From assembly GCF_900142295.1 (NCBI RefSeq), contig NZ_FSRL01000001.1, forward strand, positions 2,852,001 to 2,916,000: a stretch of 64,000 nt of DNA, written 5' to 3'. The translations under genes were made by a program, and so were the position numbers. Shown in pieces: positions 6,183 to 20,425 of this stretch; the stretch's first letter is position 1, and every line of letters starts with the position of its first letter. The notes below the pieces were generated by a model. It saw only the letters and a list, made by a program, of their open reading frames with translations, was not told the DNA's origin and made no database searches. Source of the DNA: Vannielia litorea (GTDB lineage: Bacteria > Pseudomonadota > Alphaproteobacteria > Rhodobacterales > Rhodobacteraceae).

Positions 6183-6257
6183 GCCCGGGTAGCTCAGGGG
6201 TAGAGCAGTGGATTGAAAATCCTCGTGTCGGTGGTTCGATTCCGCCCCCGGGCACCA
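6183..6257 (+). tRNA. tRNA-Phe (anticodon GAA)
   Basis: A 75-nt cloverleaf with encoded CCA. The acceptor stem GCCCGGG pairs with CCCGGGC at 6247-6253, followed by the A discriminator and CCA. The D arm begins TAGCTCAGGGGTAGAGC. The anticodon loop TTGAAAA holds GAA. The T arm GGTTCGATTCC is canonical. The gene is intact although an island is inserted at its 3' end, because the island's attachment repeat restores the 3' half. Confidence 0.96.
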
Positions 6258-6258
6258 T
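6212..6258 (+). repeat. attL: Left attachment site (47-bp direct repeat, in tRNA-Phe)
   Basis: Starts with attgaaaatcctcgtgtcgg and runs from the anticodon arm to the end of the tRNA. It recurs perfectly at 20379-20425. The flanking bases differ on both sides. This is the expected core of a tRNA-directed integration, covering the 3' half of the tRNA. Confidence 0.93.
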
Positions 6259-6306: not shown

Positions 6307-6324
6307 GTGTAATTTATGTGTAAT
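6307..6324. repeat. Island end repeat, left copy (possible integrase arm site)
   Basis: GTGTAATTTATGTGTAAT, itself two GTGTAAT units. A copy with one mismatch sits at 20233-20250 near the other end in the same orientation. It overlaps the last base of the integrase stop codon. Paired short repeats just inside both att cores suit arm-type binding by a tyrosine integrase (inference). Confidence 0.5.
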
Positions 6325-7502
6325 CAGGCCGAACTTTTCGGCTTTAACTTGCGGATGTTGTCGTCGTAGGTGCCGCTGACCCGCCCTTCCAACCGATCCA
6401 TGGCCGCCTCGATGTGGGACCCGCTTTGATGCGCGTAGCGGGCAACCATGGACAAGGTCTTGTGACCAGATATGCGCTGCACAGTGGGTAGATCGACCCC
6501 GGCCTGCACCAAATGCGTCACCGCCGTATGGCGAAGTGTGTGAGGGGTGATCTGGTCGGGATCGAGGCCAGCTCGCTCAGCGGAGCGGCGAAACGCCTTG
6601 CGGATCGTGTGGACGTGGCCGGTTGCGCTTCCCAGAGAAGGGAACAGCCATTCGCAGCCAGGCGGCAACATCTCCATGCGTTTTCTAAGATAGTCGGCCA
6701 ATTCACGCGTGATCGGCTGCTCACGAGACCCCGCTTTGGCCCGCGGAACCCAGATCACCCGCTTCCCGACGTCGACGTCTTCGCGACGGATCTTGAGAAT
6801 TTCCGCGTGGCGCATCCCAGTGTGAAGTCCAACCATGACGAAGGCGTGGACGTTTTCGTTGTGATCTGAAGCTGCGGCGTCCAACAACGCAACGCACTGA
6901 TCATCCGTCAGGTACACGATCCGCTGGTTATCTTCTTTGAAGCGATTGATCCTGACCGACTTGCTTTTTATCCACTTCCACTCGACCGCCTGGTTCAGCA
7001 GGTGTGAAAGTGTGGCCAAGTCTCGGTTCACGGTAGCCTTTGCTGCGCCCGCGGAGCGGCGGGCCTTCTTGTAGCGTTCAACGTCGAAGGACTCGATGGC
7101 ACTCAAGGGCTTGGCGGCAAGAAACGGCACCAAGTGCTGCCTTAACTGACGCTCTTTGATGTCTATGTTCTTTCCGTCGCTATCCCGAAGCCTCTGTACG
7201 TAGCGGTCTGCTGCCTCTTCGAAGCTCAGAGGAGTTTTGCGCCCCTCGGGCAACTCCAATCGCTGACGCCTTGCATCAGTTCTGGCTTGGGCGATGAAAT
7301 CTTCCGCCTGCTGCCTCGTCACACCCTCGGACTCTCTCCCGATCACGCGGTGAATGCGCCGACGGTCGACCATGATGTTGACGGAATAGACTCCGTCGCC
7401 GTTTCCATCCCGTCGAAATGTGATCCCGTGCTCCGAAATGGAAGCCCCTCGCTGGAGAGAACGGATCGCAGGACGTGTGAGCTTTGAGAAGCGAATAGGC
7501 AT
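6324..7502 (-). CDS. int: Tyrosine-type site-specific integrase of the island
   Basis: 392-aa phage-type integrase catalysing excision and insertion at tRNA-Phe. N-terminal arm-binding domain ~1-85, core-binding SAM-like domain ~92-185, catalytic domain ~195-375. All catalytic residues are visible: R231 (TGMRHAEI), K256 (RAKAGSREQPI), H321 and R324 (PHTLRHTA), H347 (SGHKTL) and nucleophile Y356 (ARYAHQS). Its 3' end is 65 bp from the tRNA, the usual place for the integrase of a tRNA-inserted island. Expected to be functional. Confidence 0.95.
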   Translation of the reverse strand: MPIRFSKLTRPAIRSLQRGASISEHGITFRRDGNGDGVYSVNIMVDRRRIHRVIGRESEGVTRQQAEDFIAQARTDARRQRLELPEGRKTPLSFEEAADRYVQRLRDSDGKNIDIKERQLRQHLVPFLAAKPLSAIESFDVERYKKARRSAGAAKATVNRDLATLSHLLNQAVEWKWIKSKSVRINRFKEDNQRIVYLTDDQCVALLDAAASDHNENVHAFVMVGLHTGMRHAEILKIRREDVDVGKRVIWVPRAKAGSREQPITRELADYLRKRMEMLPPGCEWLFPSLGSATGHVHTIRKAFRRSAERAGLDPDQITPHTLRHTAVTHLVQAGVDLPTVQRISGHKTLSMVARYAHQSGSHIEAAMDRLEGRVSGTYDDNIRKLKPKSSA

Positions 7503-7514
7503 TCCAATGAACCT

Positions 7515-8054
7515 CTAGAACGGAATCTCGTCGTCGATGTCTCTACTGGGTGGCGGCTCACCAACATCGGGAAGAACGTCCTGTTTCTTCTCGCCCATCG
7601 CGACCGCAACTAGGTCCTCCCAATGTTCGTCAACTCGCTCCCTCACGATGGCGTCCAAACTGATGCTGAAATCCCAATCGTTCCCCCGCCAACGACCGCG
7701 CCAGAAATGCCCATTCTCTTCGATCAGCGCCCAAATGTGTTGCTCTTCGAAGGTCAACAACTCAGGAGCAACAATTCCGAGCGATACCAAACGCTGGCTC
7801 TCGCGGACGTGCCAAAGTACATCGGCGCGTTCTCCGAACGTATTCGGCTCATCAAAATCAGAGTTGCGCCACTTGTTGATGACCTGCGTCTGAATGTGTT
7901 CGGCCAAAGTCGCTTCAATGAATGATGACTTGGTTCGTCGCTGGGAGCGAGCCGCCAACTCGCACAAGTAGTTCAGGCGCGGATCGAGCCGAATCGAGAC
8001 CGTCTCGGTCCTGCCCAGCTTGGAACCTGCCCCCTTCGGAACCTTGATCGCCAT
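7515..8054 (-). CDS. Ribbon-helix-helix-like DNA-binding protein
   Basis: 179 aa. Residues ~14-55 read TETVSIRLDPRLNYLCELAARSQ, then KSSFIEATLAEHIQ, the strand-helix-helix pattern of CopG/Arc-type repressors. The remaining two thirds (FTFEE-like helices, a Trp-rich segment and an acidic C-terminus ending DDEIPF) match no family I recognise. Start placed at 8054 with GAGGA just upstream; longer in-frame starts exist up to 8168. It lies 12 bp upstream of the integrase gene on the same strand, so it may regulate or be co-transcribed with it. A 17-bp palindrome lies 49 bp upstream, consistent with autoregulation. Confidence 0.65.
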   Translation of the reverse strand: MAIKVPKGAGSKLGRTETVSIRLDPRLNYLCELAARSQRRTKSSFIEATLAEHIQTQVINKWRNSDFDEPNTFGERADVLWHVRESQRLVSLGIVAPELLTFEEQHIWALIEENGHFWRGRWRGNDWDFSISLDAIVRERVDEHWEDLVAVAMGEKKQDVLPDVGEPPPSRDIDDEIPF

Positions 8055-8102
8055 GATGTCCTCGTGTCGAAACGTTCTGTAATGATCCATTTTGCACGGT
8101 TC

Positions 8103-8119
8103 GTATTGAGTTTCAATAC
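8103..8119. promoter_or_regulatory. 17-bp palindromic operator between divergent island regulators
   Basis: GTATTGA-GTT-TCAATAC is a perfect 7-bp inverted repeat in the 125-bp divergent gap between the RHH gene and the HTH gene. Its position upstream of both starts fits an operator, most likely for the RHH protein (inference). Confidence 0.5.
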
Positions 8120-8179
8120 ATGTCTTGCCCTTCTTGTCGTGTGCTGACCGAAGAACCCTGTTGAGCAAGGAACCAGGCC

Positions 8180-8428
8180 ATGAAAATCGACACTGACACG
8201 CAGCGGGTTTTCATCCACCCGGACGGACGCATGGATCGCAAGAACGCGGCCCGCTACCTTGGCTGCTCGCCGAAAACGCTCGCTGATTGGGCGATGAAGG
8301 GCCAAGGACCGCAGTACGTTCTGTTGGGCGGACGCGCTTTCTACTTCCTCGAAGACCTGCAATCCTGGATCGCCGCCGCCCCTCGCCTCGCCGGAACCGG
8401 CGGGCGGGATGCGCGGTCGAGCGACTAG
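8180..8428 (+). CDS. Small helix-turn-helix protein, excisionase/AlpA-like
   Basis: 82 aa. The segment GRMDRKNAARYLGCSPKTLADWAMKG is a MerR-like helix-turn-helix of the excisionase type, followed by GPQYVLLGGRAFYFLEDLQSWI, the wing and trailing helix typical of Xis/AlpA proteins. Such proteins act as recombination directionality factors or island regulators. AAGGA precedes the ATG. It is divergent from the RHH gene and leads a run of HTH, HTH and recombinase genes, so a role in excision control is plausible. Confidence 0.7.
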   Translation: MKIDTDTQRVFIHPDGRMDRKNAARYLGCSPKTLADWAMKGQGPQYVLLGGRAFYFLEDLQSWIAAAPRLAGTGGRDARSSD

Positions 8429-8960
8429 GGCTGAGAGGATGCCGGGAGCAAAGAACCCGGACCGCAGGCGTATCCGCATCAGGCGTACCTACTCGGTGCC
8501 TGAAGTCGCGGCGCTTCTCGACGTTCACGTTCACACCGTTCGCCGGTGGCTCAAGGACGGGTTGGGTGCGATTGATGGCCGGAGCCCAACCCTGATCCAC
8601 GGCGCGGAACTTCGCGGGTTTCTGGATGCCCGCGCCGAAGGCAGGAAGCAAAAGTGCGGCCCCGACGAGATGTTCTGCCTTTCATGCCGTGCACCGCGCC
8701 TGCCAATCCTGGGCTCCGTCTACATTGCCGACCTCAACGAGAAAACGGTTCGCCTGGCTGGGGTGTGCTGCACATGTGACAGGAAAATCTGCCGCGCAGG
8801 GAGCGCTTCACGACTGCAAGAATACACCGCGTCATTCGGGCCACTCCAGAGGCGGAACCCAAGCCTAAAGGGGAGCAGCATTCCCCTCTTGGATCGTGAC
8901 TCAAAGGAGCAAGACGAAAATGGAAAAGTTCAACGCGGAAAACGAACGGATCAAGCGTGA
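8409..8960 (+). CDS. HTH-domain protein with C-terminal cysteine cluster
   Basis: 183 aa from ATG 8409; ATG 8439 is an alternative that removes the overlap with the previous gene. Residues ~25-75 (TYSVPEVAALLDVHVHTVRRWLKDGL, then GAELRGFLDAR) form an excisionase/MerR-type HTH. It continues with cysteine pairs CLSC, CCTC and C near KICRAG, a pattern that could bind zinc. It overlaps the next recombinase gene by 41 nt if that starts at 8920, suggesting a coupled unit. A regulatory or accessory role in mobility is inferred; the cysteine part has no family I recognise. Confidence 0.6.
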   Translation: MRGRATRAERMPGAKNPDRRRIRIRRTYSVPEVAALLDVHVHTVRRWLKDGLGAIDGRSPTLIHGAELRGFLDARAEGRKQKCGPDEMFCLSCRAPRLPILGSVYIADLNEKTVRLAGVCCTCDRKICRAGSASRLQEYTASFGPLQRRNPSLKGSSIPLLDRDSKEQDENGKVQRGKRTDQA

Positions 8961-9996
8961 CTACGCTGAGTTCCTGCGCGAAGCGGATCAGAAGTCTGAA
9001 TCGACCGTGCGCGGGATCGAAAAGGCGATCCTGCGCTTCGAGGAGTACACGAGTTACTGCGACTTTGGACGCTTCAATCGCGATCAGGCAAGAGGTTTCA
9101 GGGCGTCGCTGTCCGCCCCTTCCGACGAAAGCAAACGCTTAGGAAACTTGACCATTCTTTCGACCTTGAAAGCGGTGCAACGGTTCTTCCGGTGGCTGTC
9201 AGTGCAGCCCGGCTTCAAATCCAAAATCGACACCAACTCTATCGCCTACTTCAACCTCTCCGAAAAAGACATCCGCGCGGCGACTTCTTCGCCTTCGAAG
9301 CCCTCGCCGACCATGGATCAATTGAAGCGCGCATTGGCTTCGATGCCTTCTGAGACCATTTTGCATAGGCGTGATCGTGCTGTCTTTGCCCTTCTCATGA
9401 TGACCGGCATCCGTGACAATGCAGCCGCGTCCTTGCTGCTAGGCCATGTCGACATCGACCGGCAGATGATCGTCCAAGACCCCAAAACCGTCCGCACTAA
9501 GAACAGCAAGCTGATCGAGTCCGTGCTGTTGCCGCTTGGGCCCGAGATTGAAGGCGTTCTGTTCTCTTGGGTTCGATACCTTCGCGGCGAACTTCGGTGG
9601 CAGCCTGACGATCCCCTCTTCCCTCAATCCCGGCATCGGATCGACCCTCAAAGAGGACCGGTAGTGGACGGCATAAAGCGTCAGGTCTGGTCAAACTCCC
9701 AGCCTATTCGGCAAATATTCATGCGTGCATTTGCGAGTGCTGACTTGCCTTACTTCACACCGCACCGTGTACGGAATACCGTCGTCGAGTATGCGTACCT
9801 CACTTGCCGGACGCCCGAGGAGTTCAAAGCGTTCAGCCAGAACCTCGGTCATGAGAGCGTCGTCACGACCCTGTCGAGTTACGGGCAGATCCCCTTGGCG
9901 AGGCAACGGGAGCTGATACGCAACGCGGGGAAAAGTAAGGACCTGGACGCAAAGCTGGAACTCTTACTGGAGAAACTGGAACGAGACGAAAGATAG
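8920..9996 (+). CDS. Second tyrosine recombinase of the island
   Basis: 358-aa XerC/D-like site-specific recombinase, unlike the first integrase in sequence. N-terminal core-binding domain ~5-110. Catalytic residues: R165 (MTGIRDNAA), H282 and R285 (TPHRVRNT), H311 (NLGHESVV) and Y321 (LSSYGQIP). The lysine region (VRTKNSKLIESVLLP) is also present. Start at ATG 8920 follows AAAGGAG at about 11 nt; GTG 8896 is possible. Its role is unknown: it could serve excision or be a remnant of a nested element. Confidence 0.85.
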   Translation: MEKFNAENERIKRDYAEFLREADQKSESTVRGIEKAILRFEEYTSYCDFGRFNRDQARGFRASLSAPSDESKRLGNLTILSTLKAVQRFFRWLSVQPGFKSKIDTNSIAYFNLSEKDIRAATSSPSKPSPTMDQLKRALASMPSETILHRRDRAVFALLMMTGIRDNAAASLLLGHVDIDRQMIVQDPKTVRTKNSKLIESVLLPLGPEIEGVLFSWVRYLRGELRWQPDDPLFPQSRHRIDPQRGPVVDGIKRQVWSNSQPIRQIFMRAFASADLPYFTPHRVRNTVVEYAYLTCRTPEEFKAFSQNLGHESVVTTLSSYGQIPLARQRELIRNAGKSKDLDAKLELLLEKLERDER

Positions 9997-10112: not shown

Positions 10113-12134
10113 ATGAGCACGGATATCAAGTCACTCGAGTCGTTCGTCTGGTCCATCGCTGAACTTCTTCGCGGCGACTTCAAGCAGTCCGAGTATGGCA
10201 AGGTCATCCTGCCCTTTGTCGTGCTGCGCCGACTCGACTGCATCCTTGAAGAGACCCAACCCGCCGTCCTCGACATGGCAGGCAACCTGCCCGACGACAT
10301 GGACGACGATGCCCGCGACTCCCTGCTCTCAGGTGTCGTCGGTCAAGACATCCGCCTCTACAACCTGTCCCGCTTCACCTTCGCATCGCTCAAGGGGCAG
10401 GACGCCAAGGACATCCACAAGAACCTGATCGACTACATCACCAAGTTCTCGGGCAACGTCCGCGACATCTTCCTCGACAAATTCCTGTTCACCGACCAAC
10501 TCAAGCGGCTGAACGACGCCGGTCTGCTCTATCAAGTGTTCGACAAGTTCACCCAGATCGACCTGCACCCGAACGCCATCTCGAACCTTGAGATGGGGTA
10601 TCTGTTCGAAGACCTGATCCGCCGGTTCTCGGAAATCTCGAACGAGACCGCGGGCGAACACTACACCCCGCGCGAGGTCATTCGCCTGATCGTCTCGCTG
10701 CTGCTGATCAACGATAAGGACGCGTTGACCGGGTCGGGTGTCATCCGCCAAGTCTATGACCCCGCCGCGGGCACGGGCGGGATGCTGTCCATCGCCGAGA
10801 TGGAGATGAAGGCGCTGAACGACCGCATCCGCGTCGAACTCTTCGGGCAGGAACTCAACCCGGAGTCTTTCGCAATCTGTAAGTCCGACATGCTGGTGAC
10901 CGGGCATAACCCCGAGAACATCGCCTTCGGAAACACGCTGACCCAAGACGCCCACGCCAACAAACGCTTCCACTACATGCTGTCCAATCCTCCCTACGGC
11001 GTGGACTGGAAGAAATACGCCGACCCGATCAAGGACGAGGCAGCAGAGCAGGGCATGTCCGGTCGTTTCGGCGCGGGTCTGCCCCGCATCTCTGACGGGC
11101 AGCTCCTGTTCCTGCAACACATGATCTCCAAGATGCGCAATGACGAACAAGGCTCGCGCATTGGCATTGTCATGAACGGCTCGCCGCTGTTCACCGGCGG
11201 GGCCGGGTCAGGCGAAAGCGAGATCCGGCGCTGGATGCTGGAAAACGACTGGGTCGAGGCGATTATCGCGCTGCCGACCGACCTTTTCTACAACACCGGC
11301 ATTCAGACCTATGTCTGGCTGCTTACCAACCGCAAGGACACGGCGCGGCGTGGCAAGGTGCAACTGATCGATGCCAGTGGGGAACGCTTCTGGAAATCCA
11401 TGCGGAAATCCCTTGGGTCCAAGCGTCGGGAAATCCCCGAAGATGGCACCGAAGAGATCGCGCGCATCTACCACGACATGCTGAACGGCAATTCGGGCTG
11501 GGAGGATGTGTCGAAAATCTTCAACACGACCGGCTTCGGCTACCGCGAAATCCGCGTCGAACGCCCGCTGAAACTCGCCTTTGCGGTGACGCCCGAGGCG
11601 TTGGAAGCGCTGCGCGAGGCGAAACCGTTCCAGAAACTTGACGCAGACGACCAGACCCGCGTTCTGGACGCCTTGCAGGATCACTTGCCCGGCGATGAGC
11701 GCTGGGCCTGTCGCGACGACTTCGACAAGGCGTTCTCCGCCGCCCTTCGCAGCAGCGGCGTCAAGATCGGTGCGCCGGTGCGCAAGGCAATCCTGTCCGC
11801 ATTGTCGGAACGCGACGAAGATGCCGAGGTCTGCACCGACAAAAAGGGCAATCCCGAACCCGACACCGATCTGCGCGATCACGAACTGGTGCCCTTGGGC
11901 GAGGACTGGCGCGCCTATGTGCAGCGCGAGGTTTTGCCCTTTGTTCCTGACGCTTGGGTGGATGAAACCCACACCGACGCGACGGACGGCGGTGTGGGGC
12001 GTGTGGGCTATGAAATCAACTTCAACCGCTACTTCTACAAATACGTGCCCCCAAGACAGCTCGAAGAAATCGACGCCGAGTTGAAGGCGCTGGAAGCCGA
12101 GATCGCAGGTCTGTTGCAGGAGGTGGTCGAGTGA
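10113..12134 (+). CDS. hsdM: Type I restriction-modification DNA methyltransferase subunit
   Basis: 673-aa N6-adenine methyltransferase subunit. Helical N-terminal HsdM domain ~5-150 (LRGDFKQSEYGKVILPFVVLRRLD). SAM-binding motif I YDPAAGTGGM at ~213-222 and catalytic motif IV NPPYGVDW at ~291-298. The C-terminal extension ends in a coiled-coil-like EIDAELKALEAEIAGLL that probably contacts HsdS. It is longer than the roughly 530-residue EcoKI-type subunits because of the C-terminal extension after residue ~480. First gene of the defence operon; forms M2S with HsdS and R2M2S with HsdR. Confidence 0.95.
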   Translation: MSTDIKSLESFVWSIAELLRGDFKQSEYGKVILPFVVLRRLDCILEETQPAVLDMAGNLPDDMDDDARDSLLSGVVGQDIRLYNLSRFTFASLKGQDAKDIHKNLIDYITKFSGNVRDIFLDKFLFTDQLKRLNDAGLLYQVFDKFTQIDLHPNAISNLEMGYLFEDLIRRFSEISNETAGEHYTPREVIRLIVSLLLINDKDALTGSGVIRQVYDPAAGTGGMLSIAEMEMKALNDRIRVELFGQELNPESFAICKSDMLVTGHNPENIAFGNTLTQDAHANKRFHYMLSNPPYGVDWKKYADPIKDEAAEQGMSGRFGAGLPRISDGQLLFLQHMISKMRNDEQGSRIGIVMNGSPLFTGGAGSGESEIRRWMLENDWVEAIIALPTDLFYNTGIQTYVWLLTNRKDTARRGKVQLIDASGERFWKSMRKSLGSKRREIPEDGTEEIARIYHDMLNGNSGWEDVSKIFNTTGFGYREIRVERPLKLAFAVTPEALEALREAKPFQKLDADDQTRVLDALQDHLPGDERWACRDDFDKAFSAALRSSGVKIGAPVRKAILSALSERDEDAEVCTDKKGNPEPDTDLRDHELVPLGEDWRAYVQREVLPFVPDAWVDETHTDATDGGVGRVGYEINFNRYFYKYVPPRQLEEIDAELKALEAEIAGLLQEVVE

Positions 12135-12282
12135 TTTTTTGCCTGTTCCTCGCGGTTCCTTCTTGTTTCTCTATGTTCCTTGGCATACCTACTGGGTCAA
12201 CAAGACCCGCCACGCCTCGGGCAGAGCTTCGGCTTTGTACTGCGCACCCCGGCGGGTTACTTGTTTTTGGGGTGGGCAAAAT

Positions 12283-13206
12283 ATGAAGTTTGCCAAACCC
12301 GCTATATCCGTAGATGACCAGCTCGACCTGTTGAAACAGCGCGGCATGACCGTGCCGGACGAGGTGCGCGCGCGGCATTACCTCCAACATATCTCCTACT
12401 ACCGGCTGCGCGCCTACTGGCTTCCGTTTGAGGGCGCAAAGCAAGGCGATGCGCATTGCTTCAAGGATGACACGTCATTTGACGATGTGCTGTCGCTCTA
12501 TGTCTTCGACCGACAGCTCCGCCTTTTGGTCATGGACGCTGTTGAGCGGGTCGAGGTGGCGATCCGTGCCTCCTGGGCGCATCACATGGCCATGTCGCAC
12601 GGGCCGCACGGATACTTGGACCAGCAGCACTATTCGAAAGTGCGCCACCATGCGTCGATGGTGGACAGTCTGACCAAAGAGTTCGACCGCTCGCGGGACA
12701 CCTTTGCAGAGCATTACCGCACGAAATACACCGACCCCACCTTGCCGCCCGTCTGGATGGCGGCAGAGCTTATGTCCTTTGGTTTGCTGTCCAAGTTCTA
12801 CGGCGGGCTGAAATCCCGGGCGGAGCGTCAGGCCATCGCCAAGCCGCTAGGGCTGGACGAAAAGGTGCTGACCTCTTTCGCGCACCACATGAGCCATGTC
12901 CGCAACATCTGCGCCCACCACGGGCGGCTGTGGAACCGACGGTTTACGATTCAGATGATCGTCCCGCGCTACCCGGCGCGGCTGGCCATCGCGATGAAGG
13001 GGGCGGACTCCCGAAACATCCACAACACCTTGGTGACACTGGATCAGATGCTGCGGATCGTTGCACCGGGGACAACGTGGTGCGACCGGGTCCTCCTGCT
13101 GATGGCAGAGTGTGCTTTTGCCAATCCGCAAGCGATGGGGTTCCCCGAAGGTTGGGAACAACAGCCGATTTGGAAAGCAGGACAAGTTCAGGAGGTGGGC
13201 CAGTGA
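12283..13206 (+). CDS. Abi family (AbiD/AbiF-type) protein with HEPN motif
   Basis: 307 aa. Opens KPAISVDDQLDLLKQRGMTV and continues with YLQHISYYRLRAYW, the Abi_2 (AbiD/F) signature seen in abortive-infection proteins. The R-X4-H motif RNICAH near residues 207-212, followed by HGRLWNR, marks a HEPN ribonuclease-like active site. Known relatives are linked to phage resistance through RNA cleavage; that activity is inferred here. It sits between hsdM and hsdS after a 148-bp less GC-rich leader, and its stop overlaps the hsdS GTG start, so it is translated together with the specificity subunit. Confidence 0.85.
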   Translation: MKFAKPAISVDDQLDLLKQRGMTVPDEVRARHYLQHISYYRLRAYWLPFEGAKQGDAHCFKDDTSFDDVLSLYVFDRQLRLLVMDAVERVEVAIRASWAHHMAMSHGPHGYLDQQHYSKVRHHASMVDSLTKEFDRSRDTFAEHYRTKYTDPTLPPVWMAAELMSFGLLSKFYGGLKSRAERQAIAKPLGLDEKVLTSFAHHMSHVRNICAHHGRLWNRRFTIQMIVPRYPARLAIAMKGADSRNIHNTLVTLDQMLRIVAPGTTWCDRVLLLMAECAFANPQAMGFPEGWEQQPIWKAGQVQEVGQ

Positions 13207-14552
13207 GTACCGACAGTTCGCGGTTCGCCAAACCAGCTTGGGCATCGGGTCTTCCAAGCGACTGGCAGGTACTGCCGATCAAAAAGATCGTCTCAACGCC
13301 GATCACAGATGGTCCCCACGAGACACCCGACTTTCTTGATGAAGGCGTCATATTCATCTCCGCTGAGGCGATACAGGATGGTAAGATCGACTTTGCCCGG
13401 CGGCGGGGGTTCATCTCTGAGGCAGACAATCGCCGTTACTCGCGCAAGTATTCCCCTGAGACTGGCGACATTTATGTTGTGAAATCTGGTGCGACGACCG
13501 GCAAGTCAGCGATGGTTGGCGAAAATGCAGACTTTAATATTTGGTCGCCGCTTGCAGTTATCCGCTCGAAATCGTCGATGGACAGTCGCTTTGTGCTGCA
13601 CACGATCCGCAGTCAGATCGTTCAATACGCGATTGCTATAAATTGGTCGTGGGGAACTCAGCAGAACATCGGAATGGGTGCTCTTGGAAGGATCCAAGTG
13701 CCTATCCCCGACCTCGCGACCCAACGCCAGATTGCCAACTTTCTGGACCGTGAGACCGCAAGAATAGGCCTGCTGATCGAGAAACGTGAGAAGTTCGCCT
13801 CCCTCGTTGCAGAAGCACGGGACTCGCTGGTGGCGACGATGATCTGCGGCGAAAGTTCCGAGAAGTTGGATACGACACGGAACGACTGGACCGACGCGCG
13901 CCCTGAGAATTGGAAAAGCGAAAGGGCAAAGATTTATTTCCGCGAACGGATCGAAAAAAGCGTGGATGGGTCTGAGGAACTCCTAACCGTGTCGCACATT
14001 ACAGGCGTCACAACGCGTGCCGAAAAAGACGTGAACATGTTTCTCGCCGAGAGCAATAAGGGATACAAGATCGTTCATCCCGGCGACATTGTGATCAACA
14101 CGATGTGGGGTTGGATGGGCGCTATGGGCGTCAGTTCCCATCACGGCATCATCAGTCCATCATATGGTGTCTACCGCCCAACTTCGGATGCATTTGATCG
14201 CGACTATCTGGATTTGATGCTGCGTTCAAAACCGTTCGTCGCCGAAGTAACGAGGCGTAGCAAGGGCATCCATTCCTCGCGTCTTCGTATCTATCCCGAT
14301 GCCTTTTTGGATATGCGGCTACCCGTGCCGCCGCGCGATGAACAATTCGCCATCCTCGCAGAACTTCGTCGTCGAACAGAACGTGAGAACGCGCTTCTGG
14401 CGAAGAATGAACAGGCGTCAGCGTTGCTCAAAGAATACCGCTCCGCCCTGATCACCGCCGCTGTCACGGGTCAGATCGACGTGACGACCTACACCAAATC
14501 CGGCACCCCCGACCGCCGCCTCGACGCCATCCAAGAGGAGATGGGCGCGTGA
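13203..14552 (+). CDS. hsdS: Type I restriction-modification specificity subunit
   Basis: 449 aa from a GTG that overlaps the abi stop (GTGA), preceded by AGGAGG. Two target-recognition domains (~10-180 and ~220-395) are separated by a conserved helical spacer (DLATQRQIANFLDRETARI, then REKFASLVAEARDSLVATM). The matching C-terminal helix is PRDEQFAILAELRRRTERE, then LKEYRSALITAAVTGQIDV. Both half-site domains are full length, so it should specify a bipartite recognition sequence. It is one of the least GC-rich genes in the window, consistent with horizontal exchange. Confidence 0.93.
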   Translation: MSTDSSRFAKPAWASGLPSDWQVLPIKKIVSTPITDGPHETPDFLDEGVIFISAEAIQDGKIDFARRRGFISEADNRRYSRKYSPETGDIYVVKSGATTGKSAMVGENADFNIWSPLAVIRSKSSMDSRFVLHTIRSQIVQYAIAINWSWGTQQNIGMGALGRIQVPIPDLATQRQIANFLDRETARIGLLIEKREKFASLVAEARDSLVATMICGESSEKLDTTRNDWTDARPENWKSERAKIYFRERIEKSVDGSEELLTVSHITGVTTRAEKDVNMFLAESNKGYKIVHPGDIVINTMWGWMGAMGVSSHHGIISPSYGVYRPTSDAFDRDYLDLMLRSKPFVAEVTRRSKGIHSSRLRIYPDAFLDMRLPVPPRDEQFAILAELRRRTERENALLAKNEQASALLKEYRSALITAAVTGQIDVTTYTKSGTPDRRLDAIQEEMGA

Positions 14553-14583
14553 TTTCCATTCTGTATTGCAACGAGTTGACCTC

Positions 14584-16818
14584 ATGAGAGACGCCCAAAA
14601 ACCCAACCAGTTCACCCTGAACAACTTGCTGTCGCGTCTCAAAGAGGGTCGTTTTGTCGTCCCAGACTTTCAGCGTGAGTTCGAGTGGAAACCTTGGGAT
14701 ATCTCGGATCTGATGCGGTCAATCTTCCTCGACTACTACGTCGGCAGTCTGCTGCTGTGGAAAGGCAAGGAAGAGAACTTCGACGCCCTCGCTTGCGAAC
14801 CGATCTATGGTCACACCGGCGCTGGATCATCCGAACACATCGTTCTCGACGGACAGCAGCGCCTGACCGCTCTCTACTATGCCTGTGTCGCGCCTGATGT
14901 GCCTCTGCCAGACCGTGCCAACCGCGCGATCTACTTCATCCGCGTCGACCGGTTCATGCGTGAAGAATACGACGACGCGTTCAGTTACGACTGGAAGACC
15001 AAACGTCTTGAGAAACTGACCCAAGATCCATCGATCCAGTACGAAGAGCACATCTTTCCGCTTTCTGTGATCGGCGCTGGCGGGTGGGCGATGCCGACTT
15101 GGGTTCAGGGATATATGAAGCATTGGCAGGAAAAGACTGCCGAGGCGCGAGAACTGGGCAACGATGAAGACGCCGAGCTGTTCCAAGTTCATGCCGACAA
15201 CGCCGAGAAGTTTGGCGAAGAACTCAAAAGTCTGACCGAGCAATACCAGTTGTCCTACATCGAACTCGACAAGGATCTGGGGTTGGACAAAATCTGCGAT
15301 ATCTTCACCCAGATCAACAGCAAGGGCGTGCGGTTGGACGTGTTCGACCTGCTCAACGCCTTGCTGAAACCTCGCGACCTGCAACTCAAGTTCATGTGGC
15401 GCAAGGCGCGCGGGCGTCTGGAGTTCGTCGATAGTTCGAAACTGAACGTCTACATCTTGCAGGTCATGTCGATCCTGAAGCAGGCATACTGCTCACCCAA
15501 GTATCTGTATTATCTCATGCCGGGGCACCAAAAGACGATCCGCACCCCAGATGGGAAGACCGAGAAAGAGGTGCTGGTTCACACTACCGATGAGTTCGTC
15601 GCGCTGTGGGACACGTCCGTGACGGCGTTGGAGCGCGCGATCAAGATGCTGCGCCATCCGCAAGAGTTTGGTGTCACATCGTCAAAGTATCTGCCCTACG
15701 TGTCGATCCTTCCCGCGTTCTCGTCGTTGCAGGAACATGTCCGCACATTGCCGGCAGACAGACGCCTCGACGGTCAACGCAAGGTCCGGTTTTGGTATTG
15801 GGCGGCGATCTTCACGTCACGATATTCTGGATCAGTCGAGTCAACGGCAGCGCGTGACTTCCAGAACGTGAAATCGTGGATCGATGACGACAGCAAGGAA
15901 CCGCCACTGATTCAAGAGTTCAAGACCCGGTTCAAGAACCTCGAACTGCGTCGTGAGACCAAATACGGGTCGTCGATCTACAACGGCATCTTCAACCTGC
16001 TTGTGTTGAACGGTGCGCGCGACTGGATCACGGGCAACATCCCTGAGAACGAACTGCTGGATGATCATCACATCGTTCCAGCGTCTTGGGGCGATGCCAA
16101 TCTGCAAGATCGATCGGTGCATTCGATCCTAAACCGAACGCCCTTGCTCGATGAGACGAACCGACATGTGATCCGGGATAAATTGCCTAACGCCTACTTG
16201 CCGGAACTGATCGCCAAGAACGGGGAAAGTCGTGTTCGTGCGATCTTGGAGAGTCACCTGATTTCGCCTGCTGCCTTCGACATTCTAATGAGAGAGGGCT
16301 TTTCGGCGTCGGACTTCGAAGAGTTCATCAACGAACGCCAAAGAACCTGCGTCGAGGCGATTGAGTCTCTGCTGATCAAAGAACGACTCGACCTATCCCC
16401 AGACCTCCGCGATCTGGACGAACGTATCGAGATTGCCGAACTGTCACTGCGCGCGAAGATCGAAACCGCCCTGTCCGCGCAGGAGGACGTGTTCCCGCAA
16501 CATGTGATGGAGAAGGTTCGGCAAAGACTGAACCGAGCGCAGCGCAAGAACCCCGCGTTCGACAAAGACTACTATGCGACCATGGGCGGGATGCTTGAGT
16601 TCTGCGACCTGCAAGAACTCAAGGATATCATCCTTGCGAAGGCGAACTGGCAAGAATTCGTCGGCATCTACAATTCGAAAGAAGATCTATCAAAACGGGT
16701 CGATCAACTTGCAGAAATCCGAAACGGAATCCGACACAGCAGGACAATCGATGCGGTTTCAAGAAAAGACGGTGAGGCGGCACTGACGTGGTTTGAGGCC
16801 GTGAACAAAAATGTCTGA
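14584..16818 (+). CDS. DUF262 / HNH (GmrSD-like) protein with C-terminal HEPN-like motif
   Basis: 744 aa. Residues ~15-110 are a DUF262 (ParB-like, GmrS-type) domain with VVPDFQREFEWKPWD and the nucleotide-linked motif DGQQR at ~89-93. The middle holds an HNH/DUF1524-like nuclease segment, DDHHIVPASW at ~496-505, followed by ILNRTPLLDETNR, the GmrD-type layout. The C-terminal ~180 residues end in EIRNGIRHSR, an RN-X3-H HEPN-like motif near 713-718. GmrSD proteins are modification-dependent restriction enzymes. Whether this one cuts DNA, RNA or both is unknown. A TTG start at 14566 is possible. It lies 31 bp after hsdS and overlaps the next gene by 8 nt, so it is part of the operon. Confidence 0.8.
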   Translation: MRDAQKPNQFTLNNLLSRLKEGRFVVPDFQREFEWKPWDISDLMRSIFLDYYVGSLLLWKGKEENFDALACEPIYGHTGAGSSEHIVLDGQQRLTALYYACVAPDVPLPDRANRAIYFIRVDRFMREEYDDAFSYDWKTKRLEKLTQDPSIQYEEHIFPLSVIGAGGWAMPTWVQGYMKHWQEKTAEARELGNDEDAELFQVHADNAEKFGEELKSLTEQYQLSYIELDKDLGLDKICDIFTQINSKGVRLDVFDLLNALLKPRDLQLKFMWRKARGRLEFVDSSKLNVYILQVMSILKQAYCSPKYLYYLMPGHQKTIRTPDGKTEKEVLVHTTDEFVALWDTSVTALERAIKMLRHPQEFGVTSSKYLPYVSILPAFSSLQEHVRTLPADRRLDGQRKVRFWYWAAIFTSRYSGSVESTAARDFQNVKSWIDDDSKEPPLIQEFKTRFKNLELRRETKYGSSIYNGIFNLLVLNGARDWITGNIPENELLDDHHIVPASWGDANLQDRSVHSILNRTPLLDETNRHVIRDKLPNAYLPELIAKNGESRVRAILESHLISPAAFDILMREGFSASDFEEFINERQRTCVEAIESLLIKERLDLSPDLRDLDERIEIAELSLRAKIETALSAQEDVFPQHVMEKVRQRLNRAQRKNPAFDKDYYATMGGMLEFCDLQELKDIILAKANWQEFVGIYNSKEDLSKRVDQLAEIRNGIRHSRTIDAVSRKDGEAALTWFEAVNKNV

Positions 16819-17227
16819 TCACAACCCCACCATCGCCGACCTCAAAGCGTTCATCCGCGCCCAACTCAACGCCAACTGCGATCCCGTGCCGCCAAAGACC
16901 GCGACCAGCCAGCAAAAGCACCTCACTGTCTGGACAACGCGCGACAAACGCCGCCCCATAGGTCTCGAATTCGGTCACGATGAAATCGTGAACCTCTGGA
17001 TCGTCAGCATGAATGCACCTCCAAAACTTCCTGACACGGTCAAGGTCACGAAGAAGGTGTGGAAGGGATCTGGGTGGCGAGACAAGGACCCCTCACCCGG
17101 CGAGAAGTCAAAAGGCGCGAACAGTAATCTCAAACCCTTTGAAGTTTTCAACACCCGCCCGATCACCCGTCTCGGTATTCAATCCATCGACGACGCGCGG
17201 GCGATCTTGGAGCATCTGTTCGCATGA
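16811..17227 (+). CDS. Unrecognised 138-aa protein co-translated in the hsd operon
   Basis: I recognise no family. The product is a soluble, mixed-charge protein with a proline-rich start, a Trp/Lys-rich centre (VTKKVWKGSGWRDKD) and a C-terminal helix (IDDARAILEHLFA). It has no signal peptide or membrane segment. The ATG overlaps the end of the DUF262 gene by 8 nt and its own stop overlaps the hsdR start (ATGA), so translation is coupled on both sides. This tight placement suggests a partner or antidote of the DUF262/HEPN protein (inference only). Confidence 0.7.
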   Translation: MSDHNPTIADLKAFIRAQLNANCDPVPPKTATSQQKHLTVWTTRDKRRPIGLEFGHDEIVNLWIVSMNAPPKLPDTVKVTKKVWKGSGWRDKDPSPGEKSKGANSNLKPFEVFNTRPITRLGIQSIDDARAILEHLFA

Positions 17228-20187
17228 CCGACACCCACACCATTGCCGACATTCATCAGGAAAAGGTCTTTGAGGCGCATATCGTCGCCTGCCTGACCGG
17301 CGAACAGGGATACATCGAGCGCGACCGCCCGTCCCATTATGACGTGGCCCATGCGCTCGACCCCGAACTGCTGTTCCGCTTTCTGAAAGACACGCAACCC
17401 GAGGCGTGGCAGGTGCTGGAAGATCATTACAGCGCGCAGGCCGAAGCGGAGGTTTTGAAACGTCTCGACAAGGCGCTGAAAGACAACCCGACCCATGTCG
17501 TGCTGCGCGAGGGCATCAAACTGGTGCCGAACATCCGCTTCGCACTGTGCTTCTTCAAACCTGCGTCGAACCTGAACCCCGATCTAACACGCCTCTACGA
17601 AGCGAACATCCTGTCCGTGATGCGCCAGGTGACCTATTCGGCAAAGAACAAAAACGCGATCGATCTGGTGACCTTCATCAACGGCATCCCGGTTGCGACG
17701 CTTGAAGTGAAGAACTTGCTGACCGGGCAGAACGTCAAACACGCCGAGCAGCAGTATCGGCAAGACCGATCTCCCGCTGGCGAACCGCTGCTGACCTTCA
17801 AACGCGGTGCCATCGTCCATTTCGCGGTGGATCAGGACAATGTGTCGATGACGACGCGCCTGATGAACGGCAAGACGCGGTTCCTGCCCTTCAACCGTGG
17901 ACGCGACGGCGGTGCCGGAAACCCCGATGTGACGGGCGAGAACCGTGTCGCCTATCTCTACAAAGATCTGCCCGAGGCGAAGGCGGTGTTCTCGCGCGAG
18001 GTGCTCTTAGATCTGATCGGACGGTTCATCCACCTTGAACGCTCAGGCGGCAAAGAGGTGCTGATCTTCCCTCGGTTTCAGCAGTTCGACGCCGTGCGCA
18101 AACTGCTGTCGGATGCGCGATCCAAGGGCGCGGGACAGAACTACCTGATCCAGCACAGTGCCGGGTCGGGCAAGTCGAACACAATCGCCTGGACCGCCCA
18201 CCAGATCATCAACCTGCATGACGAGAACGACCAACCGCTCTTCGACACGGCGATCATCGTGACCGATCGCTTGGTGCTGGACCGGCAGTTGCAGAACACC
18301 ATCGGCGGGTTCGCCCAAACCGAGGGCGTGGTGAAGAAGATCGATGGCACGTCCCGCGATCTGAAAGACGCGATCCTGAAAGGCGCGCGGATCATCATCA
18401 CAACGATCCAGAAGTTCGGCACCGAGCATCTTGCGACGATCTCGGGTCAGGGAGGCAGGAACTTCGCGGTGATCATCGACGAGGCGCATTCGTCCCAATC
18501 CGGCAAGGCGGCACAGGCGATGAGCGATGCGCTGACCCGCGATGCCACCAGTTCCGATGATATTGAGGACATGGTTCTCGCGTTTCAGAAGGCGCGTGGA
18601 CCGCAGAAGAACATCTCGTTCCTCGCCTTCACTGCGACACCGCGAAACGTGACGCTGGAAAGGTTCGGTCGCATCGGGGCAGACGGCAAACCGCACCCGT
18701 TCCACCTCTATTCGATGCGTCAGGCAATCGAGGAAGGGTTCATTCTGGACGTGCTCCAGAACTACATGACCTACAAGGCATATTACCAACTTGAAAAGAC
18801 CATCGAAGACGACCCTGCCTTCAAGGGACGCAAGGCACAGTCGCGTGTCGCGCGTTATGCCTCGCTGCATCCGACCGCCATCGATCAGAAGGTTGAGGTG
18901 ATCGTCGAACACTTCCGCCGTCACGTTGCCGAGGAACTGGGCGGCAAGGCGAAGGCGATGATCGTGACCCAGAGTCGCGAACATGCCCTGCGTTACTGGC
19001 AACAACTGACCCGCTACATCGCAGACAAGGGATACACCGATCTGAAGGCTTTGGTGGCGTTCTCTGGCGATTTGAACATCGATGGCAATGTCTGGACCGA
19101 GGCGACCGCAAACGGGTTCGCCGAAACCGAACTGCCGAAGAAGTTCGACACCGACGAGTTCCAGATCCTTGTCGTCGCCGAGAAATACCAGACCGGTTTC
19201 GACCAACCGAAACTCGTCGCGATGTATGTGGACAAGAAACTTGCCGGGTTGCAGGCAGTGCAGACGCTCGCTCGGTTGAACCGGACGCATCCCGGCAAGA
19301 TCCGAACCTGCGTTCTCGACTTCCAGAATACGATGGAAGACGTGAAAGAGGCGTTCGCGCCCTTCTTCGAGGCGACCGCACTCGAAGAACGCACCGATCT
19401 GAACCAAATCTATGATCTAGAACAGCGCATTTCGTCTTCGACCTACATCCACAAAGACGAAGTCGAACGGTTCGCCGCCCAGTTCTTCAAGGGCGATCTG
19501 ACGACGCAAGACCGCCTCAAGTTGGAGGGTATTGTCCGCGAGGCGGTGGAGCGGTTTGTCCTGGACGAAGACGAGGCACAGCAGGAAGAGTTCCGGCAAC
19601 TCCTGAAGAGTTTCCAGCGGTTCTACGCCTTCGTGGCGCAGGTGTTGTCGCTCAACGATACGTGGTTAGAGAAACTCTACGCCTACACATCGTGGTTGTC
19701 ACGCCTGCTGCCGTCGCGCGATGTGCCTGCCGATATCAAGATCACCGACGACATGTTGAACCTGTCCGCGTTCAAGCTGCAGAAGGGCGAGGAAGGCAGC
19801 GCTTCGTTGAACGCGGGCGAGACCCGAACGCTCGACCCGATCACCGAGTTCGGCGCAAACCCATACACCGAGGAGGAAGAGAGATCGCTGTCCGAGATCA
19901 TCGACTCGTTCAATGAACGGCATGGCACCCAGTTCTCGCGTGAAGACTTCCTGCGCTTCGAACGGGTCACTCGCGATATCATGGACGAAGAGATGACCGA
20001 GATGGTCAAAAACAACCCGGCAGATGTGGTCTACAACGCGTTCTCGCAGGCGTTCTTCCAAGGCATGGTCAGGGCGTTCCAGCAAGACAACGAGATGCGC
20101 AACATCGTCATGACAGACAAGGACGCGCGAGACCAAGCGACGCGGCACTTCTTCAAGCGAGCGCAGAGGCAGGCACGCGATGGGTGA
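17224..20187 (+). CDS. hsdR: Type I restriction enzyme motor/endonuclease subunit
   Basis: 987-aa restriction subunit. The PD-(D/E)XK nuclease lies near residues 147-163 (AIDLVTFINGIPVATLEVK) with the downstream QxxxY-type QQYRQ. SF2 helicase motor: Walker A HSAGSGKSN at ~311-319, DEAH box IIDEAHSSQSG near 420, motif III FTATPR and motif VI region QTLARLNRTHPGK. All key residues are present and there is no frameshift, so the R-M system should be complete. Start overlaps the preceding unknown gene by 4 nt. It is the last gene of the island, ending about 190 bp before the right attachment site. Confidence 0.95.
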   Translation: MTDTHTIADIHQEKVFEAHIVACLTGEQGYIERDRPSHYDVAHALDPELLFRFLKDTQPEAWQVLEDHYSAQAEAEVLKRLDKALKDNPTHVVLREGIKLVPNIRFALCFFKPASNLNPDLTRLYEANILSVMRQVTYSAKNKNAIDLVTFINGIPVATLEVKNLLTGQNVKHAEQQYRQDRSPAGEPLLTFKRGAIVHFAVDQDNVSMTTRLMNGKTRFLPFNRGRDGGAGNPDVTGENRVAYLYKDLPEAKAVFSREVLLDLIGRFIHLERSGGKEVLIFPRFQQFDAVRKLLSDARSKGAGQNYLIQHSAGSGKSNTIAWTAHQIINLHDENDQPLFDTAIIVTDRLVLDRQLQNTIGGFAQTEGVVKKIDGTSRDLKDAILKGARIIITTIQKFGTEHLATISGQGGRNFAVIIDEAHSSQSGKAAQAMSDALTRDATSSDDIEDMVLAFQKARGPQKNISFLAFTATPRNVTLERFGRIGADGKPHPFHLYSMRQAIEEGFILDVLQNYMTYKAYYQLEKTIEDDPAFKGRKAQSRVARYASLHPTAIDQKVEVIVEHFRRHVAEELGGKAKAMIVTQSREHALRYWQQLTRYIADKGYTDLKALVAFSGDLNIDGNVWTEATANGFAETELPKKFDTDEFQILVVAEKYQTGFDQPKLVAMYVDKKLAGLQAVQTLARLNRTHPGKIRTCVLDFQNTMEDVKEAFAPFFEATALEERTDLNQIYDLEQRISSSTYIHKDEVERFAAQFFKGDLTTQDRLKLEGIVREAVERFVLDEDEAQQEEFRQLLKSFQRFYAFVAQVLSLNDTWLEKLYAYTSWLSRLLPSRDVPADIKITDDMLNLSAFKLQKGEEGSASLNAGETRTLDPITEFGANPYTEEEERSLSEIIDSFNERHGTQFSREDFLRFERVTRDIMDEEMTEMVKNNPADVVYNAFSQAFFQGMVRAFQQDNEMRNIVMTDKDARDQATRHFFKRAQRQARDG

Positions 20188-20378: not shown

Positions 20379-20425
20379 ATTGAAAATCCTCGTGTCGGTG
20401 GTTCGATTCCGCCCCCGGGCACCAT
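20379..20425 (+). repeat. attR: Right attachment site (47-bp direct repeat of tRNA-Phe 3' half)
   Basis: Perfect copy of 6212-6258. Only the 3' part of the tRNA is present and there is no D arm or 5' acceptor strand, so this is the attachment core left by integration and not a second tRNA gene. Confidence 0.93.

Follow-up and report, generated by a model that had tools for sequence, protein, structure and literature searches.

What does it mean when a restriction operon carries further genes between its core subunits? In the DNA analyzed here, a stretch of 64,000 nucleotides of Vannielia litorea (RefSeq assembly GCF_900142295.1, contig NZ_FSRL01000001.1, positions 2,852,001 to 2,916,000; hereafter the window), the three type I restriction-modification (R-M) genes are accompanied by an AbiF/AbiD (Abi_2) gene between hsdM and hsdS and by two genes between hsdS and hsdR, one encoding a DUF262 protein and the other a small basic protein that we call X. 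The initial annotation regarded the six genes as dedicated parts of one undescribed defence system. We consider it probable that the locus is a type I R-M operon on a tRNA-Phe island and that recombination fills and empties two accessory slots in it: the first holds an RNA and AbiF as a toxin-antitoxin, the second a GmrSD/RloF-like nuclease together with X. Its layers are known ones that seem to be newly combined, rather than parts of a single dedicated new machine; the accessory slots are of a known kind, and X is the new module within them.

A conserved hsd frame with exchangeable contents

We searched for HsdR in 390 genomes of the order, of which 49 have a match at E 1e-100. The backbone set comprises 19 places, the window included, with HsdR identity of at least 55% over most of the protein, and all 19 were inspected; partial matches (G299, G216) and those below 55% identity were left out, six of the latter (L107-L112) being fetched and uncounted. 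The six-gene order, for which the initial annotation had proposed a genome search, occurs once in this set, in the window. X is found in four of the 19 places (window, L005, L006 and, as a fusion, L053), AbiF in three (window, L005, L006) and a DUF262 gene between hsdS and hsdR in two (window, L040). All three also occur without each other, which argues against dedicated parts of one defence system. A distant DUF262 fragment lies about 7 kb upstream in L098. At least one separate, mechanically called open reading frame (ORF) of at least 79 amino acids lies between hsdS and hsdR in 18 of the 19 places, and in L102 hsdS itself is extended. The content of this junction differs nearly every time and comes from many families. 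Occupants recognized by Pfam or PADLOC are DUF4160 (L093), dGTPase (L095), DarT (L097), HNH_2 (L053, L105) and a weak CBS match (L106), and the slot genes of L098, L099, L100 and L103 gave no convincing match to either collection. L099 and L106 carry HEPN-like R-N-x-x-A-H motifs seen by eye, which Pfam does not confirm.

Borders of the exchanged segments were located by blastn of the operon against 12 relatives out of 23 other loci. Similar shared blocks were obtained in each comparison, ending mostly at the hsdS stop and the hsdR start. The hsdM block ends at 12134-12137 and extends to 13069-13206 in L004-L006, with shared AbiF. Within hsdS, one block runs from 13692-13731 to 13784 and another from 14427 to the stop at 14552, with deviating ends at 14562 (L094), 14543 (L096) and 14527 (L100). 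The hsdR block begins at 17217-17233; in L004-L006 the last block begins at 16828-16832 because X is shared, and in L003 both X and the DUF262 gene are common with the window. Several relatives have HsdM and HsdR that are 84-97% identical, and slot genes that are either unrelated or, in the case of X, identical to about 70%. These data show that cassettes are exchanged between flanks that are conserved. Directly established are the gene order, the slot borders, the exchange of occupants, the motifs and the conservation of RNA pairs considered below. With a near-constant hsdM/hsdR frame and sharp exchange borders, hsdS-hsdR content can be mined for new effectors, and the loose idea of defence genes hidden in restriction operons becomes testable.

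In the window all six ORFs are open and lie on the plus strand, and the intact hsd genes, the three genes between them and their shared orientation are as the initial annotation described. Its domain calls were right as well. HsdM, HsdS and HsdR are all present, as in a type I R-M system, and site-specific methylation and restriction are predicted; by eye, HsdM has NPPY and HsdR has GSGKS, DEAH and D...ExK. The mechanical Abi ORF begins at TTG 12139, and the likely start is ATG 12283, which leaves a 148-nt leader behind the hsdM stop. Overlaps join the Abi gene to hsdS (GTGA at 13203), the DUF262 gene to X (8 nt, 16811-16818) and X to hsdR (ATGA at 17224), exactly as claimed earlier, and a 31-nt gap separates hsdS from the DUF262 gene. 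Across the relatives, a 4-nt start/stop overlap between hsdS and the first slot gene recurs in 16 of 24 loci, whose occupants include X, DUF262, DUF4160 and HNH, and one before hsdR in 9 of 23 (window, L004, L005, L006, L010, L040, L096, L098, L106). Since these overlaps recur with unrelated occupants, they establish co-translation and not the dedicated partnership that had been read from them.

Table 1. Features of the hsd operon and the surrounding island, in window coordinates.
Feature	Position	Strand	Evidence
hsdM, 673 aa	10113..12134	+	N6_Mtase, HsdM_N; PADLOC MTase_I E 2.4e-275
abiF-like RNA (RF03085), probable RNA antitoxin, loop longer than family consensus	12206..12257	+	32.2 bits, gathering 37; pair counts
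AbiF/AbiD (Abi_2) HEPN protein, 307 aa	12283..13206	+	PF07751 E 1.2e-58; PADLOC AbiD E 2.5e-71; PDB 8vz6 E 1.3e-53
hsdS, GTG start	13203..14552	+	PF01420; PADLOC Specificity_I
hsdS conserved central block, common to backbone relatives	13705..13784	+	blastn
hsdS conserved 3' block; end is left edge of hsdS-hsdR slot	14427..14552	+	blastn
DUF262 (GmrSD_N)-HNH-like-HEPN-like protein, 744 aa	14584..16818	+	PF03235 E 3.6e-31; PDB 7p9k; invariant motifs; helical C-terminus
X, 138-aa basic protein, no known family	16811..17227	+	no family match; homologues; structure model
hsdR, 987 aa	17224..20187	+	HSDR_N, SWI2_SNF2; PADLOC REase_I; TIGR00348 209 bits, cut-off 284.55 not reached
tRNA-Phe (GAA), island attachment site	6183..6257	+	ARAGORN; Rfam tRNA 63.8 bits
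attL, 47-bp repeat, 3' part of tRNA-Phe	6212..6258	+	100% identical to 20379-20425
attR, second copy of 47-bp tRNA-Phe repeat	20379..20425	+	
Tyrosine integrase adjoining tRNA	6324..7502	-	ORF; PF00589 E 2.3e-34
217-aa ORF, weak CopG-like repressor match	7515..8168	-	E 0.007; no Pfam match
HTH_17/excisionase-like protein	8409..8960	+	
Second tyrosine recombinase, directly upstream of hsdM	8896..9996	+	PF00589; phrog_1 integrase

Some individual slots and backbone copies deserve separate mention. The dGTPase gene (L095, 9899-11215) and the DarT ADP-ribosyltransferase gene (L097, 1456-2124) both lie in the hsdS-hsdR slot. The slot gene of L096 (3988-4335) is a member of VCH_CASS14, an integron-cassette protein family, which hints at a way in which such genes may move; that of L101 (4129-6393) encodes a 754-aa protein that weakly matches a portion of type I specificity subunits. 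Certain copies of the backbone seem to be broken, because the hsdR match of L040 (10385-13383) is split over two frames and hsdS of L106 (9255-10542) lies in two ORFs.

The AbiF gene and a probable RNA before it

In addition to the island described below, the initial annotation missed a probable structured RNA before the Abi gene. The leader matches the abiF RNA family RF03085 below its gathering score (E 0.017 in a 15-kb search, 0.00024 within 221 nt), and both its place and its strand fit. A solo AbiF locus, L055, has an RF03085 match too (E 0.058); its leader and that of the window share a 68-nt core at 87% identity, and the two AbiF proteins are 63% identical. The gathering score is not attained at any of the seven loci scanned. 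We aligned 8 of 12 AbiF leaders, leaving out L058, L059, L060 and L062, which lack similarity to the window leader. Standard pairs fill 97.2% of the 108 cells of this alignment, and 4 of the 15 pairs are changed on both sides. The covariation score and the percentage paired were reached by none of 500 shuffles, and sliding the partners destroys both. Conservation of pairs in eight related leaders is support for the RNA, not proof of it.

The protein is an Abi_2 HEPN protein, as in type III-like modules, with the HEPN-type motif RNICAH at residue 207, and it aligns to 8vz6 over residues 2-298. Published work is cited throughout from excerpts of the papers. They give 8vz6 as the AbiF-RNA complex PbAbiF-AbiFr (PMC12737573), and in Clostridioides difficile an abiF RNA is described as neutralizing AbiF through direct binding (PMC12373285). 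With an abiF-like RNA upstream, the Abi gene probably belongs to a type III-like module of RNA and toxin, in which neutralization of the toxin by the RNA is predicted. From the RNA match, the 8vz6 alignment and the C. difficile precedent, the best reading of AbiF is a toxin held by an RNA and moving with it as one unit. This would place a probable RNA-toxin module inside a type I operon; the AbiF family is said in excerpts of the same two papers to be ancestral to Cas13 (PMC12373285, PMC12737573).

At E 1e-20, AbiF is present in 11 of the 390 genomes, and in 3 of these 11 (window, L005, L006) it lies within this hsd operon. The other eight loci gave no relative of HsdM, HsdR or HsdS by tblastn in the fetched neighborhood, a search that could miss distant hsd genes and that at L059 runs into a contig end. 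A reading of stop codons inside some AbiF copies was rejected, as each flagged stop is simply where the gene ends. About 7 kb from the solo AbiF gene, L055 also has two type II hammerhead ribozyme matches above the gathering score (16730-17121).

The DUF262 protein and protein X

The DUF262 protein has 2832 homologues at E 0.001 among 8000 candidates scored, and among the matches listed, relatives of 63-66% identity carry names from cyanobacteria, Blastocatellia, Acidimicrobiales and Proteobacteria. An alignment of 24 sequences (22 of 120 listed homologues, the window and L040) shows DGQQR (89-93), DDHH (493-496), N517 and N526 to be invariant in all 24. The motif R713-N714-x-I716-R717-H718, which reads RNGIRH at 713 in the window, is likewise invariant in the 24 aligned homologues except at one position. 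DUF262 with a DGQQR motif is what characterizes GmrSD; PF03235 is above its cut-off, and cleavage of modified DNA is predicted. DUF1524 (GmrD) gave no Pfam match at E 0.1; DDHH, N517 and N526 are the invariant residues here, and a low-confidence region of the structure model places strands at 493-496 and 516-519 and a helix at 523-530. The best solved relative is 7p9k (E 1.4e-8, residues 11-80), which we take to be BrxU. The model as a whole is poor (mean pLDDT 64.4, pTM 0.34), so we lean only on its roughly 130 C-terminal residues (about 610-744), which form fairly confident helices. A C-terminal HEPN domain is therefore a candidate assignment made from motif and helices and not from the fold, and the protein is, as far as its motifs indicate, GmrSD/RloF-like with a C-terminal HEPN motif.

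Members of the subfamily (at least 58% identity) adjoin hsd genes in all five contexts examined (window, L003, L040, L114, L115), which are a small part of the family. In L040 and L114 the DUF262 gene occurs without X. L115 is a viral contig in which the gene overlaps the end of hsdM; it is the one close relative in viral contigs, beside three distant ones, and plasmids gave two distant matches. Of 398 genomes of the phylum, two have a match at E 1e-100, and one of these is that of the window. Eleven of 13 DUF262-matching genomes were excluded from the subfamily, as their proteins are 25-30% identical, align only to about residue 607 and lack the HEPN end. L114 (8815-17707) is an EcoEI-type type I operon in which hsdS is followed by a SIR2-like gene and then by the DUF262-HNH-HEPN gene.

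X has no family match in Pfam, PADLOC or NCBIfam. A search of 5.8 billion proteins yielded 38 candidates, 30 of which are homologues at E 0.001, and a scan of 84,980 species, one genome each, gave nine X loci. In the 390 genomes there are six with a match. One of them (G047/L054) was rejected as chance, being 51 residues long and antisense to a transporter gene. After merging, 10 of the 13 places with X also have hsd genes (window, L002, L003-L007, L009, L010, L053), with L005 and L006 lying in two of the same genomes and L002 having hsdS and hsdR pieces only. The exceptions are L008, where X adjoins an SNF2 helicase; L052, where it is fused to HNH and adjoins an m5C methylase; and a Rhizobium plasmid (L129, 35% identity), the sole plasmid match, with no annotated hsd gene within 9 kb. 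No X was found in viral contigs. AbiF may be present or absent where X occurs, and so may DUF262; the order of X and the DUF262 gene is reversed in L003. The names on the records of X relatives include Sedimentitalea, Marivita, Jannaschia and Paracoccus, which we take to be bacteria of Rhodobacteraceae type. Judged by its sequence, X is a new module, a basic domain of no known family that also appears fused to HNH nucleases; such a small uncharacterized domain, recurring with several nucleases, is of interest in its own right.

Two other X loci may be described here. In L013 (174-2808; the same place in L052) the gene after that of an m5C DNA methylase encodes an N-terminal X joined to a C-terminal HNH_2, and the two genes look like a type II R-M pair. 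In L007 (9582-11481), X is flanked by a 135-aa unknown and a Mrr_cat nuclease gene within the hsdS-hsdR slot.

A probable layered defence, its alternatives and the surrounding island

For the biochemical and phage-defence steps of such an operon we infer a scheme from TgvAB, PrrC, AbiF and DarTG2. HsdRMS would act first, cutting unmodified DNA. In the hsdS-hsdR slot, the GmrSD/RloF-like nuclease with its built-in HEPN domain would serve as a guard or against modified DNA, sensing modified DNA or restriction failure and cutting DNA and/or RNA, and its companion X probably binds DNA or docks the slot protein onto the type I complex. In the hsdM-hsdS slot, the abiF-like RNA and the AbiF HEPN ribonuclease would form an RNA-protein toxin-antitoxin module, AbiF being held off by the RNA and arresting growth when the RNA is lost or when infection upsets transcription or the complex.

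The six genes could also form one integrated machine in which AbiF, the DUF262 protein and X are regulated type I subunits, each released on a restriction block as with PrrC and EcoprrI. That precedent and the overlapping genes speak for it, as does the company that X (10 of 13 places) and the DUF262 subfamily (five of five contexts examined) keep with hsd genes; we nevertheless hold it to be unlikely, since the full set occurs at one of 19 backbone loci, its parts are found without each other, and L055 has AbiF and its RNA on their own. The tie between accessory and hsd genes in relatives, on which the initial annotation had staked its proposal, holds for X and for DUF262 in the contexts examined and, for AbiF, in 3 of 11 genomes. 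A coupling of the slot through X, which would read DNA or dock in a general way and bring whichever nuclease fills the slot to DNA or to the type I complex, seems possible, with our judgement leaning against it. Also unlikely is the more novel form in which X is a new modular type I-associated subunit for DNA binding or docking, acting alone with HsdRMS or carrying the nuclease of the moment (a fused HNH, a separate Mrr, the DUF262-HNH-HEPN protein), such that one complex would aim swappable effectors and RNA-held AbiF would form an addiction and back-up layer in the same operon. At the other extreme, the accessory genes might be neutral passengers without a defence role, caught by recombination at a tolerated site. 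High turnover of the slot and the several occupants without a family match would agree with this; it is very improbable, however, given that the named occupants are mostly defence-type proteins, that all 24 aligned sequences keep the DUF262 motifs unchanged and that, in the excerpts, TgvAB in a type I operon and an island with DarTG2 protect against phage (PMC11411939, PMC12255303).

Several observations weigh against an island-borne operon with independent slots, the reading that we prefer. In most of their occurrences X and the DUF262 subfamily accompany hsd genes, as would suit a functional link of some kind. On the side of the RNA, the RF03085 score is 32.2 bits both in the window and in L055, below the Rfam gathering score of 37, and L056 and L057, the source of two of the four double-changed pairs, have no RF03085 match at E 2. 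The number of double-changed pairs was reached by 11 of 500 shuffles and the number of pair types by 397 of 500, and the single strand of the window folds no better than shuffles (z -0.91). No above-chance promoter precedes the RNA in the window, where 96.8% of 1000 shuffles match the best -35/-10 pair; over the eight leaders L056 alone stands out in this test (0.1%). An empty attachment site for the island was not demonstrated: six sister species were searched, and the left flank matched in four of them, elsewhere than at tRNA-Phe.

Defence genes within type I operons are already known (PrrC, RloF, TgvAB, DarTG2 and predicted HEPN links), and two of these stand at this very junction, RloF and DarTG2. 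TgvAB of Vibrio cholerae VPI-2 is described as lying within a type I R-M operon, where it adds a complementary layer directed at modified DNA (PMC11411939). The present locus resembles it in having a GmrSD-type DUF262 protein with an HNH-like nuclease inside such an operon; TgvAB consists, according to the excerpt, of two DUF262 proteins, both required, whereas one of six proteins here matches DUF262, and the HEPN-like domain, X and AbiF with its RNA are additions. RloF (R-linked ORF F, Miller 2005) of Campylobacter type I loci is a DUF262 gene between hsdS and hsdR (PMC4619093), the junction at which the present gene lies, a likeness drawn from its description and not from its sequence; the excerpt of that paper mentions neither a HEPN fusion nor X. 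PrrC in EcoprrI is a HEPN ribonuclease gene inside a type I R-M operon, acting as a second line (PMC3874165, PMC3710099, in excerpt). An ABC ATPase is part of PrrC; among the accessory proteins here none matched an ABC domain, and AbiF has a probable RNA partner in its place. As far as the excerpts go, C. difficile AbiF-RCd22 (PMC12373285) and PbAbiF-AbiFr (PMC12737573) have an abiF RNA before an Abi_2 HEPN protein, as is probable here; unlike them, the present module lies inside an hsd operon and has one RNA motif instead of two, with a loop longer than the family consensus. DarTG2 lies between hsdS and hsdR in enteropathogenic E. coli, the same slot with another occupant, and L097 of our backbone holds DarT; the excerpt calls the hsdS-hsdR site a potential recombination hotspot (PMC12255303). 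Anantharaman et al. 2013 predicted the DUF262-HNH-HEPN fusion, Abi2/AbiF and an R-M link of the Abi2 family (PMC3710099), and X, the RNA and the turnover of the slot are absent from the excerpt. The open-licence literature searched gave no X, no abiF RNA inside an hsd operon, no two slots filled together and no such exchange borders with a list of occupants.

The operon lies on an island that the initial annotation also missed. The two 47-bp copies are spaced by 14,167 bp with 0 mismatches, which gives an island of 14.2 kb. They repeat the 3' end of the tRNA and flank an adjacent integrase gene, as expected of a tRNA island, and 65 bp separate the integrase gene from the left copy on its inner side. 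Between the repeats the GC content is 0.54-0.60, against 0.63-0.73 beyond them. Because of the tRNA-Phe, the repeat, the integrase and the GC content, we read the operon, the second recombinase, the excisionase-like HTH protein and the 217-aa ORF as cargo of an integrated element. The HTH/recombinase pair that heads the hsd operon (8409-9996) recurs in L049 (12823-14370) at about 31% and about 37% identity, where it heads a different operon, one with a 773-aa protein and a DUF262 protein.
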